A stretch of DNA of 42,346 nt from Lachnospiraceae bacterium (GTDB taxonomy: Bacteria; Bacillota; Clostridia; Lachnospirales; Lachnospiraceae). The notes beneath the pieces were generated by a model. The model was not told the origin of the DNA, made no database searches, and worked only from the letters and a program-made list of their open reading frames with translations. This document shows positions 2,079-12,986 of this stretch, piece after piece. Positions within the stretch are counted from its first letter, which is position 1. Every line of letters starts with the position of its first letter. The stretch is from assembly GCA_017619295.1 (NCBI GenBank), contig JAFZSQ010000055.1, positions 1 through 42,346 on the forward strand, read 5' to 3'. A program made the position numbers and the translations under genes.

Positions 2079-2390
2079 TTATTCGCCATGAGCCCCTTTG
2101 TTCCTCAGCTTTTTAATAAGCAGGGGTATAGAAACGCCGACTAAAAACGCCACAACGGAAATTATAACATAAATTCCGGATTCGGGAGTCAGCATAAAGG
2201 AACCATAGGATGATGCTAAATCGCCTCCAACTCCAGGTCCTGACAAAAGGCCCACCTCACCCACAAGCGCTATTGCAATAAAACACGTCACTGCTGTAAG
2301 CGCCTTGGTGAGTTTTCTTTCCCGCGCCTTTTTTATCTCTCTACTGCGTCGTTTAATCTCTGTAATTGCTTGCTCGGATGTGTACTTCAT
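2079..2390 (-). CDS. Small two-TM membrane protein of cassette A (paralogue of the 10.6-kb gene)
   Basis: A 103-aa protein of unknown function. The start was set at the ATG ending at 2390 because GGAGG lies 10 nt upstream and the paralogue begins at the same residue. The upstream in-frame GTG at 2423 would add 11 residues with no match. The charged, probably helical cytosolic N-terminus contains EIKRRSREIKK. TM1 (about 29-50) is followed by an outside loop with GPG and YGSFMLTPE, then TM2 (about 72-91) and a basic tail. About half of all aligned positions are identical to the 101-aa protein at 10569-10874, including 19 of the first 21. It follows the beta-helix gene by 45 nt. It may be an assembly, export or anchoring partner of the secreted protein; this is inference. 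Confidence 0.85.
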   Translation of the reverse strand: MKYTSEQAITEIKRRSREIKKARERKLTKALTAVTCFIAIALVGEVGLLSGPGVGGDLASSYGSFMLTPESGIYVIISVVAFLVGVSIPLLIKKLRNKGAHGE

Positions 2391-2435
2391 ATAGTTTATG
2401 CCTCCGACATTTCCCCCCTTCACCTTATATAATTA

Positions 2436-4682
2436 TTACCTTTTTACTGTGCCACCATAGTATTTCATAAGGTTTAAAAATCCGCAATATCCTTCTTCAT
2501 TTAAAAGCTGCAAAGGACTTAGCTTTGCATTTGCGGGTATTACCACTTCATATTTCACACCCTGATACATAAAGTTAATAGTTACAGATAGCCCGGATCT
2601 GATTGCCTTGTCTATCAGTTCATAAGTATTTCGATTAAAACTCACATAATCTCCGGTATTGAAATACATACCGTTATTTGCAAGTAAACGTGCTCTATCA
2701 AGCTGTCCTGTTGAGATCATTTCCGATAATTGTTTTAAATAACTCTCAACCTGCTCATCAACTTTCCTTAACATATCACCATAGTCTTCAGATGTCGAAG
2801 AACTATCTCCCGTCACTTTGTTTGTCGCAGTTACCGAAACTGTATTTCCGGCTTGAACCGTTGATGTATCCGAAGCGATCGGACTTGGTGTAGGTGTTGG
2901 CATTGAGCTCTGAGCCTGTTTTATCGTTTCAACCGTTGTTCCTGCATCATATCTGTTTATACTACCCGTAGTAAGAGCACTTGTATCTGGATTTACTTCC
3001 AATCCCTGTCCGTTATAATCTCCTCCGGCTCCTATTGCTGCTCCGGCTCCAGCGGAAGATTCAGTGTTTCCCCCTGCAGCTGATACTCTTGCGCCTCCGG
3101 ATATGATAATTGAAGAGGCAGTTCCCCAAATGCCGCCGCCGATTCCGGCACCTGATTCTCCACCAACTGCAGTTACTGTTCCCCCGCTTATGGTAATCGC
3201 GTTTCCGGTGCCCGAGCCTCCTCCTCCAATCCCGGAGCCGTACTTTCCACCGGTCGCAGTTACAGTGCCGCCGCTAATTGTAATATTTCTACCCGCTTGG
3301 CCCAATCCGCCGCCTATACCGGCTCCATTACTTCCTCCTGTTGCTATTACCGTGCCATAGCTTATTGTTATATTCTCACCTTCTCCATATCCGCCGCCTA
3401 TACCGGCTCCACCATTACCTCCGATTGCCGTTACGGTTCCGCCACTTATTGAGATATTTTTACCAGCTTTACCGGTACCGCCGCCGATTCCGGCCGAATT
3501 GCTTCCTCCGTTGGCGTGTACTTCTCCGTGACTTATTGTAATTGTGTTCCCCTCACCATTATAACCACCGCCGATTGCCGCAGCCTGACTTGCGTTTGCA
3601 GTAACATTGCCTCCGCTTATTTCAATATTGGTTCCGTTGCCTCTCAATCCACCGCCGATTCCGGCGCCCATTCCGCCACCTCTCGCGTTTACTGTACCGT
3701 TTGTAATGGTGATGGATGAGCCACTATTGCCACTACCGCCACCGATTCCGGCGGCTTCATAGCCTCCGGTTGCTGTTACCGATCCGCCGCTAATAGTAAT
3801 ATCTGAGCCGGCACCTCCGTTACCACCGCCAATTCCTGCAGCTTGGTTTCCTCCTATTGCAGTAACGGTTCCGTATGTTATGGTAATCCCGGTTGCGTTT
3901 CCGCCTTTTCCGCCACCGATTCCAGCGCCGTAATCCTTATTTTCGGCAGTAACCGTTCCCCCATTAATGACAATATTTGATGCGGAGCCGTTTGCTCCGC
4001 CGCCGATTGCAGCCGCATTACTATTTACTGCCGCCTTCGCATTTACGGTACCACCGTTAATGGTAATATTTGACGCATTTCCGTTGGGACCGCCGCCGAT
4101 TCCGGCTGCAGAAGCTTCTGCTTCATTCATGTTGGCATTTATAGTTCCGCCGTTTATCGTAATATTTGTAGTATTCCTCTGACCTTGGGAGCTTCCGCCA
4201 ATCCCTGCACCACCGGATTGGCCATTAGCGTTAAGTACACCGTCATTATCAACATCATTGATTACAAGATAACCGGAATCGTCCTTTTCAAGGGCGGCAT
4301 ATCCTCCAAACGCTGATAAAGTATTGGTTCCTTCGAGTTCAATATTAACAGTACCTTCTCCGCTTACAGTAACCGCTCCCTGCAGGCTGAGTATATTGAC
4401 ATTTTCAAGAGTAACGTTAGCTGTGGCGCCATTTTCAGCACTGATACTAACGTTATTTGATGATGCGGAATCACTATTCCTGTTAGTGATTACCGGGGCA
4501 TCATCATTATTTGTGTTGCTTCCCTGAGAAACAGTCTGTCCTGAATCTGAAGCATGGACAGTTATTGCTCCATCCTCTGTGTAATAGGTGTCAGCAAGCG
4601 CAACGAGCGGTGTAGACAATACCATCATTGCTGTGATTACTGTACTTCCTACCACTTTCCCTACATATTTTCCTTTTTTCAT
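2436..4682 (-). CDS. Secreted beta-helix repeat protein with shared C-terminal domain (cassette A)
   Basis: 748 aa. An N-terminal signal peptide (basic start, hydrophobic core, likely cleavage after VALA near residue 30) precedes a low-complexity Ser/Asn stretch. Residues 85-150 look like the start of a Cthe_2159-type (PF14262-like) carbohydrate-binding beta-helix. Residues 158-560 hold 14 copies of an AGIGGG unit, mostly 28-29 residues apart, each with an ITISGGTVTATGG-like strand. A Pro/Thr linker (about 593-615) and a short helical stretch (about 635-670) lead to a C-terminal domain (about 676-744) that resembles the end of the secreted protein at 9004. No LPxTG, S-layer or choline-binding motif is seen. 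Binding to plant polysaccharide would fit the beta-helix family but is inference. AGGAAGG precedes the ATG. Confidence 0.85.
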   Translation of the reverse strand: MKKGKYVGKVVGSTVITAMMVLSTPLVALADTYYTEDGAITVHASDSGQTVSQGSNTNNDDAPVITNRNSDSASSNNVSISAENGATANVTLENVNILSLQGAVTVSGEGTVNIELEGTNTLSAFGGYAALEKDDSGYLVINDVDNDGVLNANGQSGGAGIGGSSQGQRNTTNITINGGTINANMNEAEASAAGIGGGPNGNASNITINGGTVNAKAAVNSNAAAIGGGANGSASNIVINGGTVTAENKDYGAGIGGGKGGNATGITITYGTVTAIGGNQAAGIGGGNGGAGSDITISGGSVTATGGYEAAGIGGGSGNSGSSITITNGTVNARGGGMGAGIGGGLRGNGTNIEISGGNVTANASQAAAIGGGYNGEGNTITISHGEVHANGGSNSAGIGGGTGKAGKNISISGGTVTAIGGNGGAGIGGGYGEGENITISYGTVIATGGSNGAGIGGGLGQAGRNITISGGTVTATGGKYGSGIGGGGSGTGNAITISGGTVTAVGGESGAGIGGGIWGTASSIIISGGARVSAAGGNTESSAGAGAAIGAGGDYNGQGLEVNPDTSALTTGSINRYDAGTTVETIKQAQSSMPTPTPSPIASDTSTVQAGNTVSVTATNKVTGDSSSTSEDYGDMLRKVDEQVESYLKQLSEMISTGQLDRARLLANNGMYFNTGDYVSFNRNTYELIDKAIRSGLSVTINFMYQGVKYEVVIPANAKLSPLQLLNEEGYCGFLNLMKYYGGTVKR
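3003..4211 (-). repeat. In-gene tandem repeat array, 14 units of about 85 bp
   Basis: The central part of the beta-helix gene is a direct repeat array coding for AGIGGG-x(5-7)-ITISGGTVTA units. Spacing between successive units is 28-29 codons in the middle of the array and 32-37 at the ends. Some units carry ITIxYG, ITISHG or ITITNG in place of ITISGG. Copy number could vary by recombination between units. Confidence 0.85.
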
Positions 4683-4750
4683 AGTGTTTTCCTTCCTGTT
4701 TGTTATAGGTCAAGGGGCATTTTTATGTTCATTTTCTGCCCTCTATATTT

Positions 4751-4780
4751 TTAGTTGCATCAAGAAGGAAAATTACTCAC
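4751..4780 (-). promoter_or_regulatory. Candidate ECF-type promoter of cassette A
   Basis: On the minus strand GTGAGTAAT (4780-4772) is separated by exactly 15 nt from AACTAA (4756-4751), 68 nt before the beta-helix start codon. An A/T-only stretch lies just upstream, like an UP element. The same two blocks with the same spacing precede cassette B at 10939-10910. The length of the gap suits a -35/-10 pair for an ECF sigma factor, and one is encoded at 12986-12414. The sigma assignment is inference. Confidence 0.5.
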
Positions 4781-4821
4781 TAAAATTTTTTAAATTTTTT
4801 TATTCTGCATAATGGATCAGC

Positions 4822-4929
4822 TTACTTATCTTCATTCTCCATTTTCTTATAGATTTTATAATGAATGCATGTAAGGCTGCTAAATACTCCCAGAGCAAGT
4901 GCCAGAATCCCTGTTATAACATATCCCAT
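4822..4929 (-). CDS. 35-aa single-TM membrane peptide downstream of the DUF3021 gene
   Basis: A short gene: ATG at 4929-4927, stop TAA at 4824-4822. A very strong ribosome binding site (GAGGAGG, 7 nt upstream) supports translation. The product begins MGYVITGILALALGVFSS, one hydrophobic helix, and ends in a charged tail (YKIYKKMENEDK). It lies 24 nt after the DUF3021 gene and so is probably the last gene of the CPBP-LytTR-DUF3021 transcript. Its function is not known. Small TM peptides next to regulators can modulate membrane partners, but nothing here shows that directly. Confidence 0.7.
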   Translation of the reverse strand: MGYVITGILALALGVFSSLTCIHYKIYKKMENEDK

Positions 4930-4953
4930 TCAAAATCCTCCTCTAACAATTCA

Positions 4954-5403
4954 TCATAACCTCTCATTTTCTGAGTTTTGATAGGCAAGCAAGGCCTCGT
5001 TCAATTCCCTGGCCCCGGCCAACTCAAATACATATTCTATCACAGATGAAAGGATAAATACCACTACTATTCCTATTGCAATTCCCGGCACAACACCCTT
5101 TCTCTCGGTGGGTATTGACTCCGCTGAATATGCCAGTGTAAGCATCATTGCCTCAATCACCAAAAGAACAACAGCCCTTCTTATGATAAGCATTTTCATG
5201 GATAATTCTTTTTCAGAATCTGTGAAAAAGCAGGGAATCACCCCAATGGCAGCATAGATTAAGGGCGAAAGAAAAACTTCATATCCAAACACCCTGTCAC
5301 TGTCGAACATTAATCCCAAAACCATAAGAAGAATAGATATTAATGTAACCAATATAAAGTAAAGCCTGAAGGCCTCTTCAAATCTCTTTCTGAACTTATT
5401 CAT
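4954..5403 (-). CDS. DUF3021-like four-TM membrane protein
   Basis: 149 aa with four hydrophobic segments (about 15-33, 43-60, 75-92 and 104-128) and a charged C-terminal tail. Small four-TM proteins of this type are routinely encoded right after a LytTR DNA-binding protein in Firmicutes, where they are thought to restrain the regulator. Here the gap to the LytTR gene is only 3 nt, and GGAGG is 6 nt before the ATG. The sequence fits that pairing, and the role as membrane inhibitor of the regulator is inferred from family context. Confidence 0.75.
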   Translation of the reverse strand: MNKFRKRFEEAFRLYFILVTLISILLMVLGLMFDSDRVFGYEVFLSPLIYAAIGVIPCFFTDSEKELSMKMLIIRRAVVLLVIEAMMLTLAYSAESIPTERKGVVPGIAIGIVVVFILSSVIEYVFELAGARELNEALLAYQNSENERL

Positions 5404-5406
5404 CTG

Positions 5407-5850
5407 TTACCTCCGCCCCTTAAGTGTATCCTTGAAGTCAGGCACGTATTTTCTGGAAATAACAATCTCCTCTCCGTTCTTTAGGAGGGCTGTATATCTG
5501 CCGCTTAATGCGGGTTTAATGGATTTTACCTTTAACAGGTTTAAAAGCATACCCTTCTGAACTCTTATGAAGGATTTGCCCTTAAGCATTTCCTCAAGTT
5601 CATAAAGCTTAAGTCTTAGTTCATAACTTTCCTTTGCTGTGTAGATAAAAAGCCGATTATCTACTGATTCAGCATAGAATACGTCAATAACAGGAACCTC
5701 TATGCTTTGACCCTCTACATAGGCGCATAGCTGTCCCTGCCTTGATTTTACAAAGGAAATTATTTCCTGTATGTTATCCGTTACTTTATGACATCTGATT
5801 TCCAAGACTTCAGGTTCTTCTGCGGGAACCTTTTTCAGTTTCAATTCCAT
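5407..5850 (-). CDS. LytTR-domain transcription regulator (no receiver domain)
   Basis: 147 aa, too short to carry a receiver domain. Residues about 45-145 form a LytTR DNA-binding domain: IPVIDVFYAESVDNRLFIYT-like strands, a YELRLKLYELEEML helix, FIRVQKGMLLNLLKVKSI, and a terminal ISRKYVPDFK. This class binds paired direct repeats as a dimer and often controls its own operon. The gene lies 17 nt after the CPBP protease gene and 3 nt before its DUF3021 partner. The ATG lacks a good ribosome binding site but has an extended -10 a few bases upstream (see 5857-5865). Candidate binding repeats lie at 6685-6715. Confidence 0.9.
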   Translation of the reverse strand: MELKLKKVPAEEPEVLEIRCHKVTDNIQEIISFVKSRQGQLCAYVEGQSIEVPVIDVFYAESVDNRLFIYTAKESYELRLKLYELEEMLKGKSFIRVQKGMLLNLLKVKSIKPALSGRYTALLKNGEEIVISRKYVPDFKDTLKGRR

Positions 5851-5856
5851 GAAACC

Positions 5857-5865
5857 ATTATAGCA
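5857..5865 (-). promoter_or_regulatory. Extended -10 placed to give a leaderless LytTR transcript
   Basis: TGCTATAAT on the minus strand (a perfect TGn plus TATAAT) ends 6 nt before the LytTR ATG, so initiation 6-7 nt downstream would start at or next to the start codon. The same ATG has no clear Shine-Dalgarno sequence. No matching -35 was found. It sits just past the CPBP stop codon. Confidence 0.35.
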
Positions 5866-5867
5866 GA

Positions 5868-6608
5868 TTACTTCGTTTTTTCCAGTTTAAGCCACATGGC
5901 GATGCTGTAAACCACGCTTATAACAATTGCCGCAATTACGGTGATAATCATTTCATTTTTAGCTCCGCCAAAAAACTGTGCGGACACCTCAGGCTTGTTA
6001 AATGCACTGCAGGAATTGTTTACTGCGTGGAATATCATGCAGGGAATGATGCTTCCACCCTTGTAGTAAAGTGTAACAAGCACAAAGCCCACAGCCACAG
6101 CAAATACAATCTGAAGAAGTGTCTCAAACAAATCCTGACCGTTTAACAGGTTAACGATATGACCGACTCCAAAGGTTATTGAAGAAACAATAATTGCAGC
6201 CTTTACATTGTTCTTGGCCATTCCTTCAAACAGAAATCCTCTGAAAAGAATTTCCTCAAGGAAGCCTACCCCAAACATGCTAAGCAGATAGCAAGCCGTT
6301 CCAAAAGCTGAGTAGTTAAATCTTAATCCGAAGAACAGGCTGCTGCATCCGATAAGGAAAAGGGGAATGAAGAACCAGGCTTTATACAATTTGTATGCCG
6401 GTTTAACCAGTCCGTATTTTTCCATAAGTCCGTTTCTCTTAATCCAGGAGAAGAGGAAAACCCCAAAGGCCACGTGGAAAATTGCAGAGGCAACTTTGAA
6501 TGTGCCTGTTACCTCCGATATATATTCTCCAAGGCTTGTTCCGATTACATAAATAACAATCATTATAACTGCAAATCTTACTTCACTCTTTTCATATAGT
6601 TTTTTCAT
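5868..6608 (-). CDS. CPBP family intramembrane metalloprotease (CAAX protease-like)
   Basis: 246 aa with about seven to eight TM segments. All three motifs of the family are present: EEILFR (Glu118, Glu119, Arg123), FGVGH (His150) and HAVNN (His194, Asn198), which form the glutamate/histidine active site. In bacteria these enzymes act in bacteriocin immunity, prenyl-type processing or regulated proteolysis; the substrate cannot be told here. AAAGGA lies 9 nt before the ATG, inside one arm of an inverted repeat (6611-6650) that could hide it. The gene heads a four-gene set with LytTR, DUF3021 and the 35-aa peptide, which lies directly upstream of the beta-helix cassette. Confidence 0.9.
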   Translation of the reverse strand: MKKLYEKSEVRFAVIMIVIYVIGTSLGEYISEVTGTFKVASAIFHVAFGVFLFSWIKRNGLMEKYGLVKPAYKLYKAWFFIPLFLIGCSSLFFGLRFNYSAFGTACYLLSMFGVGFLEEILFRGFLFEGMAKNNVKAAIIVSSITFGVGHIVNLLNGQDLFETLLQIVFAVAVGFVLVTLYYKGGSIIPCMIFHAVNNSCSAFNKPEVSAQFFGGAKNEMIITVIAAIVISVVYSIAMWLKLEKTK

Positions 6609-6610
6609 GT

Positions 6611-6650
6611 GTTATATTCCTTTCTTTCGTGTCGTTAGGTGGAATATAAC
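6611..6650 (-). promoter_or_regulatory. Inverted repeat over the CPBP ribosome binding site
   Basis: GTTATATTCC at 6611-6620 and GGAATATAAC at 6641-6650 are exact 10-bp inverted repeats with a 20-nt spacer. In the minus-strand mRNA the 3' arm contains the GGA of the CPBP ribosome binding site. A fold would sequester it. Alternatively the pair is a dimeric operator. Confidence 0.5.
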
Positions 6651-6684
6651 CCATAAATTCTGCCCATACAATAGGTAAGGAGCC

Positions 6685-6715
6685 AAGATGCACTATTGCT
6701 TTGTAAGATGCACTA
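6685..6715 (-). promoter_or_regulatory. 11-bp direct repeat, candidate LytTR binding site
   Basis: AAGATGCACTA occurs at 6685-6695 and again at 6705-6715, exactly 20 bp apart. Two direct repeats about two helical turns apart are the usual architecture of LytTR sites. The repeats lie upstream of the CPBP-LytTR operon and between it and glgX. Binding by the neighbouring regulator is inference. Confidence 0.4.
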
Positions 6716-6778
6716 AACTTTCATGTTTCCCCTTTTTTGATATCTGATGTATTATTAGAGAAAGGAGGTTACATAACT

Positions 6779-8917
6779 ATGGCACAGTTATCAAAGAAAA
6801 AAGCTGATAAGCCCAATGAGCATGTTCATTCCGCCAACAACATGCCTGCAACTTATCAGAAGTACCACCTTATTCCCTTTGACCATGTGGACGGTTTTGA
6901 TATTCGCCCCGGTTTCTATGATATAAACGGGGCAACCGCAATTCCCGGCGGAGTAAATTTCACCGTTCATACCACAGGCGGAACAGCTGTTGAGCTTCTA
7001 CTTTATCATCGCGGCGAATCCGAGGACAAGCCCTTCGCCGTAATACCCTTCCCCTCTCATTACCGTATCGGTAATGTATTCTCCATGATAGTATTCGGAC
7101 TGAATATCTATGATTTTGAATACGCATATCATGTAGACGGTCCTTATAATCCTTCAAAGGGCCTGATTTTCGACAAAACAATCCCCCTTTTGGATCCCTA
7201 TGCCAAGGCTGTTGTAGGTCAGAGCGTATGGGGTGAAAAGGGTCCCGTGGGCAACATGTATCGAGCAAGAGTCGTAAAGGACGATTTTGACTGGAAAGAC
7301 TTTGCTGACCCCTGCCTGCCCATATCAGATTTAATAATATATGAGATGCATGTTCGTGGTTTTACCAAAGACAAATCATCAGGCGTTGAGTTCCCCGGAA
7401 CCTTTGAAGGTATCCGTGAAAAGATTCCATACCTCAAAGAACTTGGTGTCAACGCAGTGGAACTGATGCCCATATTTGAATTCGATGAAACTCTGGATAA
7501 GCGTGAGTATAACGGAAAGCAGCTTTGCAATTACTGGGGCTACTCCACCACATGCTTCTTTGCTCCCAACACAAGTTATGCGGCTCATACCGAATATAAC
7601 CGTGAAGGAAACGAATTAAAGCAGCTTGTAAGTGAACTTAACAATAACGGCATCGAGGTAATTCTAGATGTTGTATTTAACCATACTTCCGAAGGAAATG
7701 AGCACGGCCCCGTAATCTCCTTCAAGGGCTTTGATAATCAGCTCTACTACATGCTGACTCCGGAAGGCTTCTATTATAATTTCAGTGGCTGCGGCAACAC
7801 CATGAACTGCAGTAATCCTGTGGTTCAGCAGCTTATTCTGGAGTGCTTAAGATACTGGGTTATCACCTATCGTGTGGACGGATTCAGGTTCGATCTTGCC
7901 TCAATTCTCGGTCGTGACGATGACGGTTCGCCCATGGCCAACCCTCCTCTCATGCAATCTCTTGCCTACGACCCTATTCTGGGAAATGTAAAGCTTATTG
8001 CCGAAGCCTGGGATGCAGGCGGGCTTTATCAGGTAGGCACCTTTGCTACCTGGAACGACCGTTGGGCTGAGTGGAACGGAAAATATCGTGACGATATCAG
8101 AAAGTTCTTAAAAGGCGATGAGGGCTCAATCTTCGGCGCCGCCTGGCGTCTAATCGGTTCCCCCGATATATATAAAGACAGCACTCACAACTCTTCCATC
8201 AACTTCATAACCTGCCATGACGGCTTCACCCTTTATGATTTGTTTGCATACAATGAAAAGCACAATGAAGCCAACGGCTGGAACAACACAGACGGTTCAA
8301 ATGATAATCACAGCTGGAACTGCGGCGCTGAGGGCGAAACAGATAATCCCGGGGTAAACGCCCTTAGAAGAAAGATGATGAGAAACGCCTTTGCCGTACT
8401 GATGTCAAGCCGGGGAACCCCCATGTTTTTGGCCGGTGATGAATTCGGAAACACTCAGTTTGGAAACAACAATCCCTACTGTCAGGACAATGAAATTTCA
8501 TGGCTTGACTGGCGTCTTCTTAAGAAAAATAAAAGTGTATTTGAATTTGCCAAAAAGGCAATCGCCTTCAGAAAGAAACATCCTATTCTCAGAGAACACC
8601 TTGGCACCAGCGGCCTCGGCTTCCCAGAAACATCCTTCCACGGCGTGAAGGCCTGGCAGGATAACTTCCAGGGTTATGACCGCTACCTTGGTGTAATGCT
8701 TGCCGGAAAGACTTCAGACGGCACCGAAGATATCGTATATGTGGCCATGAACACCTACTGGGAAGATCTGACTGTTGAGCTCCCCTCTCTTCCAAATGAA
8801 TTTCAATGGAAAGTGGCTCTCGACAGCTCCGACAAACCCATGAAGGAAGGAACAATTGTCTCCGGCAGCTTCGTCATCGAAGCCAGAAGCGTCGTGGCCC
8901 TTGTGTGTGTTAGCTGA
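6779..8917 (+). CDS. glgX: GlgX-type glycogen debranching enzyme (GH13 isoamylase family)
   Basis: 712 aa. The ATG at 6779 was chosen for the strong AAAGGAGG 10 nt upstream; the ORF opens 14 codons earlier without one. An N-terminal CBM48-like domain (about 35-130) precedes the GH13 barrel. The four conserved regions are visible: DVVFNHT (297-303), DGFRFDL with nucleophile Asp372, IAEAWD with acid Glu409, and ITCHDG with Asp481. The enzyme hydrolyses alpha-1,6 branches of glycogen or limit dextrin in the cytoplasm. It could be a broader isoamylase or pullulanase-type enzyme. It is one of two plus-strand genes, divergent from the CPBP operon and convergent with the DUF6273 gene, and no other glycogen genes are nearby. 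Confidence 0.93.
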   Translation: MAQLSKKKADKPNEHVHSANNMPATYQKYHLIPFDHVDGFDIRPGFYDINGATAIPGGVNFTVHTTGGTAVELLLYHRGESEDKPFAVIPFPSHYRIGNVFSMIVFGLNIYDFEYAYHVDGPYNPSKGLIFDKTIPLLDPYAKAVVGQSVWGEKGPVGNMYRARVVKDDFDWKDFADPCLPISDLIIYEMHVRGFTKDKSSGVEFPGTFEGIREKIPYLKELGVNAVELMPIFEFDETLDKREYNGKQLCNYWGYSTTCFFAPNTSYAAHTEYNREGNELKQLVSELNNNGIEVILDVVFNHTSEGNEHGPVISFKGFDNQLYYMLTPEGFYYNFSGCGNTMNCSNPVVQQLILECLRYWVITYRVDGFRFDLASILGRDDDGSPMANPPLMQSLAYDPILGNVKLIAEAWDAGGLYQVGTFATWNDRWAEWNGKYRDDIRKFLKGDEGSIFGAAWRLIGSPDIYKDSTHNSSINFITCHDGFTLYDLFAYNEKHNEANGWNNTDGSNDNHSWNCGAEGETDNPGVNALRRKMMRNAFAVLMSSRGTPMFLAGDEFGNTQFGNNNPYCQDNEISWLDWRLLKKNKSVFEFAKKAIAFRKKHPILREHLGTSGLGFPETSFHGVKAWQDNFQGYDRYLGVMLAGKTSDGTEDIVYVAMNTYWEDLTVELPSLPNEFQWKVALDSSDKPMKEGTIVSGSFVIEARSVVALVCVS

Positions 8918-8940
8918 TGGCGGCGCGATTTAATCAAAAC

Positions 8941-8978
8941 GGGCATCGGGAAATGACTTTCATCATTTCCCGATGCCC
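8941..8978. terminator. Bidirectional terminator between glgX and the DUF6273 gene
   Basis: A perfect 16-bp stem (8941-8956 with 8963-8978, 6-nt loop) lies between two convergent stop codons. The minus-strand side is followed by GTTTTG, the plus side only by TATTAATTCT, so it should be stronger for the minus-strand gene arriving from the right. Confidence 0.8.
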
Positions 8979-9003
8979 TATTAATTCTAAATCAAGTAAT
9001 GCC

Positions 9004-10551
9004 CTACTTGCCGTAATGGCCGTACAAGTATAATGGGCCGTACCAGGGAATTTTAGGGTCGGTCTTGACTTTCTTACCCGGGATTGTCACCTCATAATCC
9101 TTATATTCGTAGGTGTATGAGAATACAAGGGTAAGCTGGGGATTCTCTTCCAAAGTCTTCATGATATTTGAGGGAAGGGCTGTTCCTCCGCGCCAATATA
9201 CCGTTCTCTCACCGCCCAGGGATATAGCATAATCAAGTAAATCCTCTAAGGGGTCAAGATAATTGAATTCGGGTATATCTTCAGGTTCCTGAGGGGCTTC
9301 TTCGGAATCCTGTGTAGGTGTTGCAGCAACAGTTCCAACTCCGGATGATCCAAGTGCTGTCAGATTAATAATCCCCGATGAATAATCCGTCATATAGTTC
9401 CCGTTACACTGTTCCTGGAATACATAAAGTTTACACCCTGCAGGAGCAGCTGAGGGAATATTTATGCTTGCGATTCCGGTAGCAGATGTACAGGATGCGA
9501 TATTTCCGTAGTATAAAACCGTGTCGGAGGAATCAGTTATGATTGCAGATACATATTCATTTGTACCAATCTGTGCTCCACTGTAGCTGATTTCTGCGGT
9601 TCCGCCCGGTGTGAGTGTATCCAAATCTGTTCTACTTGCGGTGAAACTGCTTCGAGCAGAATCCGCAACGGTGAGTTTCCATTTCGTGTTTAAATTGGAG
9701 ACATTCACAAGTGTAAGGTCAGCACCTACAGTACCAGATAATTTGCCGTCTACAGCGGCAGATGTAAAAATAATAGCTGATAGATTTAAATTTAAAGCTG
9801 GGCGTATTGCAACCTCAGAAATGTCGACGCTTAATCCACTTGTGGACACTTCACCGTCAGCGTGGACATAAGCAGCTGAGAAATCATCATGGATACCTGG
9901 TGAGCGTAGCCACCACGGACCGCAGGGGCCATATTCCAATATAGCATAATTACTGGTATATGCGGTATCTTCAGCCAGGCGGCTGTTATCATCAGTGAAT
10001 CCGTATGTTGTGTTTCGAACCTCATCGATGGAAAGAAGCAATAGTTTATCTGTTGTATTGTTACCACCTGAAGTGCCATAATCAGGATTATCTGAGTTAA
10101 TAACGGAAGTATCAGCTATTGATGACATCTCCGCTCCCGAAAAAGCAGAATTTATAAAGTTATCATTCAACCAAGTACGAAGAGTACAAGATTCCCATGT
10201 AACTAAAGAATCGGATTCATTATATTCTTTGCAGTCAAGATTATCGTCTGCGAGCAAAAACAACTGACTGCCCGAATTCTGCAGTACTCTCCATTTAATG
10301 GGATCGACTCCTGTACCGCTTTGATTATATACGCCAAAATACACACTGTTCACCTGGGCTCCCTCGATATTTGGCGCACTTCCTCCTGTTACAATCTGCA
10401 AATTCTTCCCCGTTCCAGCTGCCTTTACAGTCATCTCCGTCCCTGGCAATACCGTAACGCATGCGATTACCGCCATAATAAGCCCAAGGGCCATTGTCAG
10501 TAATCTTCTAATGACCCCTTTTTTTGTTATAAAGTCCATTTTTGTTTCCAT
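9004..10551 (-). CDS. Secreted DUF6273 protein with shared C-terminal domain (cassette B)
   Basis: 515 aa. A Sec signal peptide spans about residues 14-45 (basic VIRR, hydrophobic core, VKAAG). Residues about 67-256 match the DUF6273 pattern: IKWRVLQ, LFLLADD, W-x-LRTWLN, a LLLLSIDEV strand, and WWLRSPG at 213-219 followed by VAIRPALNL. A beta-rich domain (262-400) and an acidic Pro/Glu linker follow. The C-terminal domain (448-515) contains TLVFSYTYEYKDYEVTIPG and PWYGPLYLYGHYG and resembles the end of the beta-helix protein at 2436. DUF6273 modules are found in secreted surface proteins of clostridia; no enzymatic role is known. GGAGG is 9 nt before the first ATG. It follows the small two-TM gene by 17 nt. 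Confidence 0.85.
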   Translation of the reverse strand: METKMDFITKKGVIRRLLTMALGLIMAVIACVTVLPGTEMTVKAAGTGKNLQIVTGGSAPNIEGAQVNSVYFGVYNQSGTGVDPIKWRVLQNSGSQLFLLADDNLDCKEYNESDSLVTWESCTLRTWLNDNFINSAFSGAEMSSIADTSVINSDNPDYGTSGGNNTTDKLLLLSIDEVRNTTYGFTDDNSRLAEDTAYTSNYAILEYGPCGPWWLRSPGIHDDFSAAYVHADGEVSTSGLSVDISEVAIRPALNLNLSAIIFTSAAVDGKLSGTVGADLTLVNVSNLNTKWKLTVADSARSSFTASRTDLDTLTPGGTAEISYSGAQIGTNEYVSAIITDSSDTVLYYGNIASCTSATGIASINIPSAAPAGCKLYVFQEQCNGNYMTDYSSGIINLTALGSSGVGTVAATPTQDSEEAPQEPEDIPEFNYLDPLEDLLDYAISLGGERTVYWRGGTALPSNIMKTLEENPQLTLVFSYTYEYKDYEVTIPGKKVKTDPKIPWYGPLYLYGHYGK

Positions 10552-10568
10552 TACAAAAGCCCTCCAAA

Positions 10569-10874
10569 TTATTTATCTCTTTTTTCCCTGAAATATTTAA
10601 CAAGTAAAGTTGCGCCTATGCCTAACAGGAAGCCTGCTACAGCGACTATTACGTATAGACTGTATTCCGGGGTTAATAAGAATGAGCCATAGGCTGTCAT
10701 AGCACCGGAATCTGATCCGGGACCGGTCAAAAGACCTATATCACCTACAATGACCATGACCAGTAAACAGCTTAATGCCATCAACCCCTTGTTTATTTTC
10801 TTTTCCCTGTCTTTTTTTATTTCTCTACTGCGCCTTTTAATCTCTGAAATTGCCTGTTCTTTTGTATATTTCAT
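10569..10874 (-). CDS. Small two-TM membrane protein of cassette B
   Basis: 101 aa, paralogue of the protein at 2079-2390, with AAAGGAGG 6 nt before the ATG. The layout is the same: charged N-terminal helix with EIKRRSREIKK, TM1 (about 29-50), an outside loop with GPG and YGSFLLTPE, TM2 (about 72-91), basic end. The near-identity of the cytosolic N-terminus (19 of 21 residues) suggests a conserved partner inside the cell. Here the small protein gene comes first and the secreted protein second, the reverse of cassette A. No matching family with a known function is recognised. Confidence 0.85.
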   Translation of the reverse strand: MKYTKEQAISEIKRRSREIKKDREKKINKGLMALSCLLVMVIVGDIGLLTGPGSDSGAMTAYGSFLLTPEYSLYVIVAVAGFLLGIGATLLVKYFREKRDK

Positions 10875-10909
10875 AGATTTCCTCCTTTTGGATTCATCCC
10901 TTCATTATG

Positions 10910-10939
10910 TTAGTTACAGAAAATAGAAATATTACTCAC
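10910..10939 (-). promoter_or_regulatory. Candidate ECF-type promoter of cassette B
   Basis: GTGAGTAAT (10939-10931) and AACTAA (10915-10910) on the minus strand, spacer 15 nt, 35 nt before the small two-TM gene. It is preceded by an A/T-rich tract. It duplicates the element at 4751-4780 and lies just past the terminator that closes the sigma factor operon. Confidence 0.5.
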
Positions 10940-10963: not shown

Positions 10964-10989
10964 AAAAAAATAACACGCATCAGCGTGCT
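10964..10989 (-). terminator. Terminator overlapping the prsW stop codon
   Basis: On the minus strand AGCACGC-TGAT-GCGTGTT is followed by ATTTTTTT. The loop contains the TGA stop of prsW and the 5' arm is its last codons. It separates the long housekeeping-sigma-PrsW run from cassette B. Confidence 0.85.
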
Positions 10990-11603
10990 ATTCTTTTTCT
11001 TATAAAGTAAAGTATCACCGCCATGGTCAGAGGCAGCACATATCCAATGTATGAAGACAATCCCGGAGCCGACACCAGAAGGTTATATAAGGAATGAACA
11101 CTGGTTGAAAGGCTTAAGCCACCCATGATAACCGCAACTGAAAGAGCGCTCTTTCTTCTTAACATGATAAAGGCAAAAGTCATGGTCAGCACACTTACAA
11201 TATGCATTATGCCTACAGCAAACCCTCTGATCAGGATGTAGGGAAGGCTTTCCGATCCGGCAGCCAAAAGCTGGCACAGGTTTTCAAAGGTTGCAAACCC
11301 GGTTCCCAGTCCGGTGCAGGTCAGAATCAGTTCCTCATCATTGGGCTCAAACATAAACACATAGAGAAGCATGGGAATGAACTTTACTATTTCCTCAACC
11401 ACGGGGGAAATAAAGATTGACGTATCTTCTCGTCCCAAGGCGGCTTTAAGTTCCCAAAAGCCTCCTATATAGGCAGCAAAGAGACATGCTAACATCCCAA
11501 CCACAAAAGCACCGATAAACCTTTTGGTTTTATCCTTTGTAAAAGCCAGGGCTACAATGAGAGGAACCACTATGCAGATAAGAATATTCTCAGCGTAAAT
11601 CAT
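10980..11603 (-). CDS. prsW: PrsW family glutamic intramembrane protease
   Basis: 207 aa from the ATG ending at 11603, which has AAAGGTGG 7 nt upstream; an earlier in-frame TTG at 11627 is less likely. About seven TM segments. Family residues are present: EExxK (Glu70, Glu71, Lys74), ATFEN (Glu107), His134, and HSLYN (His170, Asn174). In Bacillus subtilis PrsW makes the first cut in the anti-sigma factor RsiW and so activates SigW. Here it is the third gene of a set starting with an ECF sigma factor, which supports a similar release role. A single-TM anti-sigma factor is not evident between them. The start overlaps the end of the upstream membrane protein gene by 14 nt, so translation is probably coupled. 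Confidence 0.85.
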   Translation of the reverse strand: MIYAENILICIVVPLIVALAFTKDKTKRFIGAFVVGMLACLFAAYIGGFWELKAALGREDTSIFISPVVEEIVKFIPMLLYVFMFEPNDEELILTCTGLGTGFATFENLCQLLAAGSESLPYILIRGFAVGIMHIVSVLTMTFAFIMLRRKSALSVAVIMGGLSLSTSVHSLYNLLVSAPGLSSYIGYVLPLTMAVILYFIRKRIAR

Positions 11604-12393
11604 TGAGTGCCCACCTTTTAAGAGCAAAATACAACACAGGTAACGTAAGAATGTTAAGGGCAGAGGCTATGATGTACCAGACTCCCTCACACATAAACAA
11701 AACCAGGTCACTCCAGAAGAATACGAAAAATGCCGTATACAAAGCCTTCATAACGTTGTCTTTGTCTCTGTCCAATAAACCCTTATAATCATAGGCTACT
11801 GCAAGGCCGGTAACAATAAACATCACAACATAGGCTGCAATGTCAAGTTCAACCCGGTATTCCTTAAAAATTATAGGTGCAAAGTTCAACGCAAATACGG
11901 CAAAGGTGCCCGCAACTGCAACTGCCTTCTCACTTTTCTTATACACTCCGGCATTATGGGTGCGCGAAACCACCACATAAAGAAAATATATGTAGGGCGG
12001 ACTGCATACAATGTCCTGCACCCACTCTCCTGACCACAGTATCCAAAGAACAATATTTAATCCAATAAACAAAATGGAAAAAAGCAAAGATGCGATGTGT
12101 AGATTTTTGTATTCATGGGCGATTTGGGTAAGACAGGCTCCCAAAAGAAGTAATGTAGCAGTTTTTGCTATTTCATCGGAGGAAAATGGCTTTCTGGTAT
12201 GAGGCCTTAAGAAATCATAAACTATCCAGTAGAGGTCCTCGAGGCTGTAACTTACCATTGCAAAAATAAAAAAAGAAATGGGGACAGAATTACGGCAGCG
12301 TCCGGAAAGCCTGATGCCGCCATAAACGATAGGTATCAGTACAAAGACCTGCACAGTAAATATAGCAATTTCAAGAATAATTGCGCTGCTCAC
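11590..12393 (-). CDS. Eight- to nine-TM membrane protein of unknown function
   Basis: 267 aa, almost entirely membrane: hydrophobic segments near 3-28, 36-60, 75-92, 98-118, 126-145, 157-178, 184-204 and two between about 214 and 255. No motif of a known transporter or enzyme is recognised. It sits between the ECF sigma factor gene (20 nt upstream) and prsW (14-nt overlap). The context suggests a sensor or a multi-spanning regulator of the sigma factor, possibly the PrsW substrate, but soluble loops are short and nothing resembles a zinc-finger anti-sigma domain. Treat the role as unknown. Confidence 0.7.
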   Translation of the reverse strand: MSSAIILEIAIFTVQVFVLIPIVYGGIRLSGRCRNSVPISFFIFAMVSYSLEDLYWIVYDFLRPHTRKPFSSDEIAKTATLLLLGACLTQIAHEYKNLHIASLLFSILFIGLNIVLWILWSGEWVQDIVCSPPYIYFLYVVVSRTHNAGVYKKSEKAVAVAGTFAVFALNFAPIIFKEYRVELDIAAYVVMFIVTGLAVAYDYKGLLDRDKDNVMKALYTAFFVFFWSDLVLFMCEGVWYIIASALNILTLPVLYFALKRWALNDLR

Positions 12394-12413: not shown

Positions 12414-12986
12414 TTACATATCCCATTCAAAGCCTTCCTTAATAAGCTCTTCTTTGGCTGAAGCTTTGCCTCTGGCAAGGAGGTTATAAACCTGCTTTCT
12501 GGTCTTTCTCATGACCTTCCCCACCGTATCAGCGTCCATATCTTCAAAATAGGTCAGATACAAAGCGGTTCTATAATCCAGGGGCAGTTTGTCCAAAGCC
12601 TTGTATAAAGCTTTGTCCCTTTCACTCTTAATGGTCACTGTCTCCGCCACTTCCGGGTCCTTCAATATGTCCTCATAATCTTCAAAAGGTACGGAGTCAG
12701 TTCTCAGATTCTTCCTTAAAAACCTGGAGGCCTGTTTAACAGCCACAGAATATAGCCAGGTCTTAAACAGTGAATTATTCAAACCGAGGAAACCGGATTT
12801 ACGGGAAATCACAATAGCAAAGCAATCCATCATGATTTCCTCAGAATCATCAATGTTATGAACGATTCTGTTGATAAAAAGGGTCAGAGGAACGTGATAT
12901 CTCTCAAAGAGGATACCCAATGCATCGTCCTCATTCCCGGACAGAAATCGGCTGTATAATTGTTCGTCGGTTTCCTTCACCTTCAA
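12414..12986 (-). CDS. ECF-type RNA polymerase sigma factor
   Basis: 190 aa. Region 2 spans about residues 10-85 (GILFERYHVPLTLFINRI and a DSEEIMMDCF helix), then a linker, then region 4 near 128-185 with LDKLPLDYRTALYLTYFED and a helix-turn-helix TVGKVMRKTRKQVYNLLARG. No region 3, so an extracytoplasmic-function type. The start is uncertain: a TTG at 12986 has GAGG 5 nt upstream, and a GTG two codons later has the same GAGG at 11 nt. It begins 12 nt after the cdd stop codon, so it is transcribed with housekeeping genes. It is followed by a multi-TM protein and PrsW, and is the best candidate to read the two cassette promoters. Confidence 0.9.
   Translation of the reverse strand: MKVKETDEQLYSRFLSGNEDDALGILFERYHVPLTLFINRIVHNIDDSEEIMMDCFAIVISRKSGFLGLNNSLFKTWLYSVAVKQASRFLRKNLRTDSVPFEDYEDILKDPEVAETVTIKSERDKALYKALDKLPLDYRTALYLTYFEDMDADTVGKVMRKTRKQVYNLLARGKASAKEELIKEGFEWDM

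Follow-up and report, generated by a model that had tools for sequence, protein, structure and literature searches.

In Bacillus subtilis, the anti-sigma factor RsiW, a single-transmembrane (TM) protein with a zinc-binding cytoplasmic domain, is cut by PrsW and then by RasP (PMC5358783). Here we describe a stretch of 42,346 nucleotides (nt) from a Lachnospiraceae bacterium (contig JAFZSQ010000055.1 of assembly GCA_017619295.1; this whole stretch is called the window hereafter) with two gene pairs, cassettes A and B, each combining a gene for an exported protein with one for a small two-TM protein. In our view the pairs resemble the output side of a bacterial signalling module, one for which no name was found. 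Like the SigW/RsiW/PrsW/RasP system, the module has an extracytoplasmic function (ECF) sigma factor and a PrsW-family protease; unlike SigW/RsiW, it gathers two small hairpin proteins, a multi-TM protein and a surface protein in one locus, and its target promoter precedes the second copy of the small-protein gene. RsiW is encoded apart from PrsW in B. subtilis. We consider it likely that A and B are the target cassettes of one ECF sigma factor, and that their small proteins are minimal two-TM anti-sigma-like regulators, probably cut by PrsW.

Small membrane proteins that regulate ECF sigma factors, the role we propose here, are found in the SigM and SigY systems. YxlC is such a regulator in the SigY operon of B. 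subtilis, and CnrY is a membrane-bound component of a Gram-negative metal-sensing system; to our knowledge, neither the SigM nor the SigY operon of B. subtilis contains PrsW. The YhdL/YhdK complex consists of small membrane-protein regulators of SigM in B. subtilis (PMC6827917), and a short two-helix class II anti-sigma domain can hold an ECF sigma factor (PMC7406223). The proposed likeness of our small proteins to CnrH/CnrY would lie in such a short sigma-holding domain rather than in sequence. Unlike YhdL/YhdK and YxlC, the 44 small proteins compared here match no such family among the best 25 of 132 weakly matching families.

A further parallel is offered by Gram-negative cell-surface signalling, where a TonB-dependent transducer shields an anti-sigma factor from proteolysis (PMC11637429). 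In the present module, too, a surface protein stands under a sigma factor and is paired with a putative membrane regulator of that factor. In contrast to the Gram-negative systems, the hosts are of Gram-positive type and have no outer membrane, the protease is of the PrsW type, the partners are adhesin-like proteins or proteases, and shielding is a proposal.

The cassettes and their probable control operon

The small proteins of A and B are paralogues (53 of 97 positions identical, E 1e-40), and the positions of the open reading frames (ORFs) give opposite gene orders: promoter, exported, small in cassette A and promoter, small, exported in cassette B. A sequence-only reading of the window had described these duplicated, paired cassettes and their reversed order correctly. 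It ended, however, before the operon of cassette B, which extends to position 12986, and overlooked the ECF sigma/PrsW operon that holds the small proteins. On the same strand as cassette B and upstream of it, a sigma factor gene, a multi-TM membrane protein gene (mem) and a PrsW-family protease gene make up a control operon that spans 12986-10980.

The sigma factor scores 68.2 bits against the sigma70-ECF model TIGR02937 (curated cut-off 42.9), a cut-off likewise exceeded by seven other tested sigma genes. Only regions 2 and 4 were found, Sigma70_r4_2 above its cut-off (34.1) and Sigma70_r2 (22.2) just below its cut-off of 24. The protease matches PF13367 with 58.6 bits (gathering cut-off 23.5), and E70, E71, K74, E107, N108, H134, H170 and N174, including an E-E-x-x-K motif and the His/Asn positions, are invariant across 20 relatives. 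The PrsW equivalog NF033739 is not reached (30.9 against a curated cut-off of 225), which places the protein on a divergent branch of the family. The mem protein of the window matched 0 Pfam families, and its AlphaFold2 model has no separate soluble domain.

Conservation of the module

A pattern search with the PrsW of the module returned 396 relatives, the best 80 of which were kept as related loci; as these loci were selected on PrsW, the presence of PrsW itself is no evidence. Their titles are mostly those of metagenome-assembled genomes (MAGs) of Lachnospiraceae and other Clostridia, many from the rumen. The recurrent order is sigma, small 1, mem, PrsW, small 2, exported protein. A sigma gene lies upstream in 74 of the 80 loci, and in four of the remaining six PrsW is within 1.8 kb of the locus start. 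The mem gene is present in 79 (once as a joint ORF with PrsW) and small 2 in 69, or 68 of the 75 loci with more than 700 nt downstream. Small 1 occurs as a full copy in 40 loci, where it stands between sigma and mem and remote from any exported gene, and as a mini form holding only the second TM helix (TM2) in 14 more; judged by eye, the ATG of the mini form overlaps the end or stop codon of sigma in at least 7 of these 14. The order sigma-small-mem-PrsW-small is exact in 39 loci, while 17 have sigma-mem-PrsW-small, as in the window. The same order was seen in 36 regions chosen on the small protein instead, wherever the contig was long enough.

The pairing of a small with an exported gene recurs in many genera, with the exported gene first in L054, L150, L156, L163 and L177, and the earlier suggestion that the pairing was kept through rearrangement is thereby borne out. 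Among 396 genomes of the family, a profile of five small proteins found 29 at E 0.001, including 6 with nothing better than E above 1e-5, and a later profile found 9 of 391 genomes of the class, in several families, at E 1e-6. The assembly itself holds a second locus, C58, with two sigma, two mem and two PrsW genes, three small proteins and one DUF6273 protein. The tail of the latter is severed by the contig end; a matching tail lies at the end of C49, and the gene is whole in a sister genome.

Examples of the mini small 1 are L130 (9101-9211), L140 (9101-9217), L162 (4729-4854) and L122 (9106-9213), among others; by eye it is also seen in L175 and L186. L060 represents a minimal form, sigma-small-small-exported, with mem and PrsW absent between the small genes.

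The target promoter

Between PrsW and small 2, often 3' of a terminator-like hairpin, a sequence recurs in related loci whose elements, GGTGAGTAA...TGCAACTAA, are proposed as recognition sites; in the promoters of A and B they read GTGAGTAA and AACTAA. Fitting a motif to 27 non-redundant regions gave a log-likelihood of 216, against 119-143 for 12 shuffled sets run with fewer restarts. A matrix was then built from 12 sites of other genera, chosen by eye from 38 displayed regions (30 outside the genus). Run over both strands of the window, it ranks cassette B first (27.0 bits) and cassette A second (18.5 bits), with the next best site at 11.3 bits. In the 2.75 Mb draft assembly, TGAGTAA-N16-AACTAA has two mismatch-free sites, one before A and one before B, in agreement with the common promoter claimed earlier. 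The matrix was also applied to 60 further non-redundant regions behind PrsW, after removal of training contigs, the own genus and any site up to five mismatches away from a training site. At a threshold of 14 bits it finds 34 of these regions; for shuffles the count is 2 of 1200, and for regions upstream of sigma 1 of 51. Since matches stand before A and B but almost never upstream of sigma, the two cassettes look like units of one regulon, with the sigma operon outside it.

The same results bear on the view that there is no signalling link and that a frequently shuffled island of surface-protein genes lies beside the sigma operon by chance. The great diversity of the partners would suit such an island, whereas a gene order fixed over many genomes and a unit-specific promoter almost absent upstream of sigma would not, and we regard this explanation as very improbable.

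The small proteins as putative anti-sigma regulators

According to their hydropathy profile, the small proteins consist of about 27 mostly charged inner residues, a TM helix, a short outer loop, a second TM helix and a charged tail. Across 30 loci, the distances of small 1 and small 2 track those of sigma as well as those of PrsW (partial r between 0.32 and 0.44, 0 of 2000 permutations in each case), values that may be inflated, as is possible in partial correlations of this kind. The distances of mem track PrsW (partial r 0.60) and not sigma (-0.15). Small proteins that connect sigma with the protease would be expected to give such a pattern. Together with the cutting of an anti-sigma factor by PrsW in B. 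subtilis, it leads us to take them as minimal anti-sigma-like regulators; their position and topology point in that direction too.

Alternatively, mem itself could hold sigma, with the small proteins serving as accessory subunits of a protease complex. Its position directly after sigma where small 1 is missing (17 of the 80 loci, a pattern that includes the window) would fit this, but mem follows PrsW rather than sigma in its distances, is modelled without a separate soluble domain and, in L159, shares an ORF with PrsW, which points to a protease partner; we therefore judge this arrangement improbable. The ORF in L159 (1551-2846) that spans mem and PrsW may be a natural fusion or a MAG sequencing error.

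From the module, its gene order, its promoter and the variety of its partners, all of which the genomics shows, we infer sigma binding, cleavage, feedback and a signal along the following lines. The sigma factor would recognise the promoter before each small-plus-exported unit. The small proteins, as membrane hairpins, would be membrane-bound regulators that most likely hold sigma through their inner arm. Upon a signal, PrsW, with mem as its partner or sensor, would cut them and free sigma, and the released factor would make the surface protein along with a new copy of the brake, closing a feedback loop. The module offers testable regulatory logic for large surface proteins, mostly uncharacterised, from Clostridia of the rumen and gut, with the sigma factor, a readable promoter, the protease and a short regulator all in one locus and a promoter sequence that helps to predict the surface genes of the circuit. 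If the anti-sigma role is true, PrsW signalling reaches beyond a zinc anti-sigma factor and takes in very small hairpin regulators that accompany their target genes.

Exported partners and the shared tail domain

Partners were defined as neighbouring genes of at least 150 amino acids (aa) that pass a crude signal-peptide test. Such a partner is found in 49 of the 69 loci with small 2, in 45 behind small 2 and in 4 between PrsW and small 2, and 31 of the 49 are complete. Eight of ten scanned partners contain Pfam families, including leucine-rich, collagen-like, InlB-type, SLH and trypsin-like ones, and others. A short trypsin-like serine protease takes the place of a giant surface protein in L123 and L159 (by Pfam) and in L169, L170, L174, L176, L180, L199 and L200 (by eye, from the C-terminal sequences).

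The sequence-only reading had noted a similar C-terminal tail domain on the exported proteins of A and B and had proposed that the small protein recognises it. Direct BLASTP of the two tails aligns only 19 residues, at E 0.047. When the last 130 residues of A are scored with a profile built from six related tails, A excluded, they reach 20.4 bits (best shuffle 10.9); iteration of the profile, still without A, raises this to 40.7, 42.6 and 43.2 bits, whereas no scored shuffle exceeds 9.3 (2000 made, 1614-1738 scored). With scores so far above those of shuffles, the homology of the tails is real. Recognition by the small protein is not supported: the domain is absent from 24 of the 31 complete partners, and in a survey of 396 genomes of the family, where the tail domain occurs in 20, the small protein in 29 and both in 2 (of one genus), 18 of the 20 tail-domain genomes are without the small protein and 27 of the 29 small-protein genomes without the tail domain. 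Across genomes, the domain does not occur only or mainly beside the small protein. Among partners it is clearly over-represented, being carried by 7 of the 31 complete ones (six of these seven outside the genus: L133, L135, L158, L165, L193 and L197), by three sister-genome partners and by A and B. The shared tail domain is real, yet it does not tie the gene pairs together.

In a predicted model, the tail domain folds with confidence (predicted local distance difference test (pLDDT) 95.3), and comparison of the model with the PDB gave no clear match. In L053, L014 and several others a LysM-like end, named by eye, comes after the tail, which therefore has the look of a domain on the wall side of exported proteins and not of a docking tag for the small protein.

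These data also weigh on a wider form of the sequence-only reading, in which the small protein is a membrane partner that aids the export, anchoring or folding of the adjoining exported protein, with sigma setting the timing only. In its favour, the pair is retained at a distance from the sigma operon, both in L085, where none is in reach, and in cassette A, 7.6 kb from it, and survives the reversals of order listed above; 7 of the 31 complete partners share the tail domain, and the two small proteins of the window are related to each other, as are its two tails. Against it, full small 1 stands far from exported genes in 40 of the 80 loci, the partners scanned are unlike in kind, most complete partners have no tail domain, 20 of the 69 small 2 loci have no exported-looking partner, and both small proteins track sigma and PrsW. 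We find it doubtful as an account of the small proteins.

The copies of the DUF6273 gene in L008 and L052, from two species, differ in clusters inside the gene, in the manner of a variable region. A diversity-generating retroelement (DGR) acting on DUF6273 was considered, but no DGR reverse transcriptase was found in the own genome (assembly 95.8% complete), whose one RVT_1 match is a group II intron maturase by eye, or in the sister genome, which has no match.

Points against an anti-sigma role and a possible extension

Several observations weigh against the proposed anti-sigma-like role. Besides the family comparison given above, whose best 25 families included no anti-sigma family, the small proteins lack an RsiW-type zinc motif (HxxxCxxC, located in the cytoplasmic domain of such anti-sigma factors): neither Cys nor His occurs in the N-terminal part of a consensus built from 51 sequences of small 2 or from 35 of small 1. 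The inner arm has very few residues for a domain that binds sigma, the mini small 1 has no inner arm at all, and the distance correlations may be inflated. Small 1 was not detected by profile in 26 of the 80 loci, the window being of this type (two of them have the mini form by eye), so that in window-type loci small 2 would have to take over this role, although its production would begin only once sigma is active. As for the promoter, 26 of the 60 test regions stay below 14 bits, and the matrix found no target promoter at the C58 operon of the same genome, whose sigma factors probably read another promoter. The 20 small 2 loci without an exported-looking partner lie in part at contig ends and in part beside non-exported neighbours. 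Finally, at least one unit remote from sigma retains its small gene, which feedback alone would not require.

Because plain feedback needs no small gene in reversed or distant units, small 2 and its partner may also be functionally tied. One tentative version, which we hold to be unlikely, is a Gram-positive form of cell-surface signalling, in which every surface protein would be produced along with a two-TM anti-sigma protein of its own and would guard the outer loop of the latter from PrsW. Were the surface protein lost, blocked or bound by a ligand, the loop would be exposed, sigma freed and that very surface protein restocked. Such guarding would explain both halves of the evidence, namely small proteins that apparently link sigma to PrsW and a small gene that stays with the exported gene; if it is true, swapping the exported partner gives one sigma factor many independent surface sensors.

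Origin of cassette A and other features of the window

Just upstream of the promoter of cassette A lie a relic of the sigma-gene 3' end and a frame like the mini small 1 (Table 1). Together they lead us to view cassette A as descending from a duplicated module stripped of its control genes, and the sequence suggests that it is a remnant of such a module.

Table 1. Features of the two cassettes and the control operon in the window. The program listing starts the small-protein ORF of cassette A at a GTG (2423), and the inner ATG is used here; the signal peptides of exported proteins A and B were judged by eye.
Feature	Position	Strand	Evidence
Small two-TM protein of cassette A, 103 aa from inner ATG	2079..2390	-	ORF table; paralogue pair
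Exported protein A, beta-helix repeats and tail domain, 748 aa	2436..4682	-	ORF table; 13 Beta_helix_3 stretches
Tail domain of A	2454..2660	-	Profile match with A held out
Target promoter of cassette A	4750..4781	-	18.5 bits, rank 2 in window
35-codon frame, MGYVITGILALALG..., like TM2-only mini small 1	4822..4929	-	Compare L130, L140, L162
Relic of sigma-gene 3' end (DELLEEDFEWDML), overlapping the stop of the preceding gene	4914..4955	-	16-base identity with end of window sigma gene; translation
Exported protein B, DUF6273 and tail domain, 515 aa	9004..10551	-	ORF table; Pfam
Tail domain of B	9004..9213	-	Profile match; model pLDDT 95.3
Small two-TM protein of cassette B (small 2), 101 aa	10569..10874	-	ORF table; paralogue pair
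Target promoter of cassette B, GGTGAGTAAT...TGTAACTAA	10909..10940	-	27.0 bits, rank 1 in window
Terminator-like hairpin and T run between PrsW and cassette B	10964..10989	-	Sequence read by eye, unscored by program
PrsW-family glutamic intramembrane protease	10980..11627	-	PF13367; alignment begins 11603
Multi-TM membrane protein (mem), nine long helices in model	11590..12393	-	AlphaFold2 pLDDT 93.8
ECF-type sigma factor, 190 aa (TTG start in listing)	12414..12986	-	TIGR02937, Sigma70_r4_2, Sigma70_r2

Between the cassettes (4954-6608), the window encodes a LytTR regulator with a membrane protein and a CAAX-type (Rce1-like) membrane protease. Units resembling cassette A occur elsewhere. The genome of L083 has, in addition to its sigma operon, the small-plus-exported units L085 and L084; L084 lies close to the end of a contig, with its exported frame split over two ORFs. 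In L055 (5284-6118), a small protein and a 1544-aa exported protein stand behind an ORF with a weak sigma match (E 1e-3), and this locus is perhaps another unit with a sigma relic.

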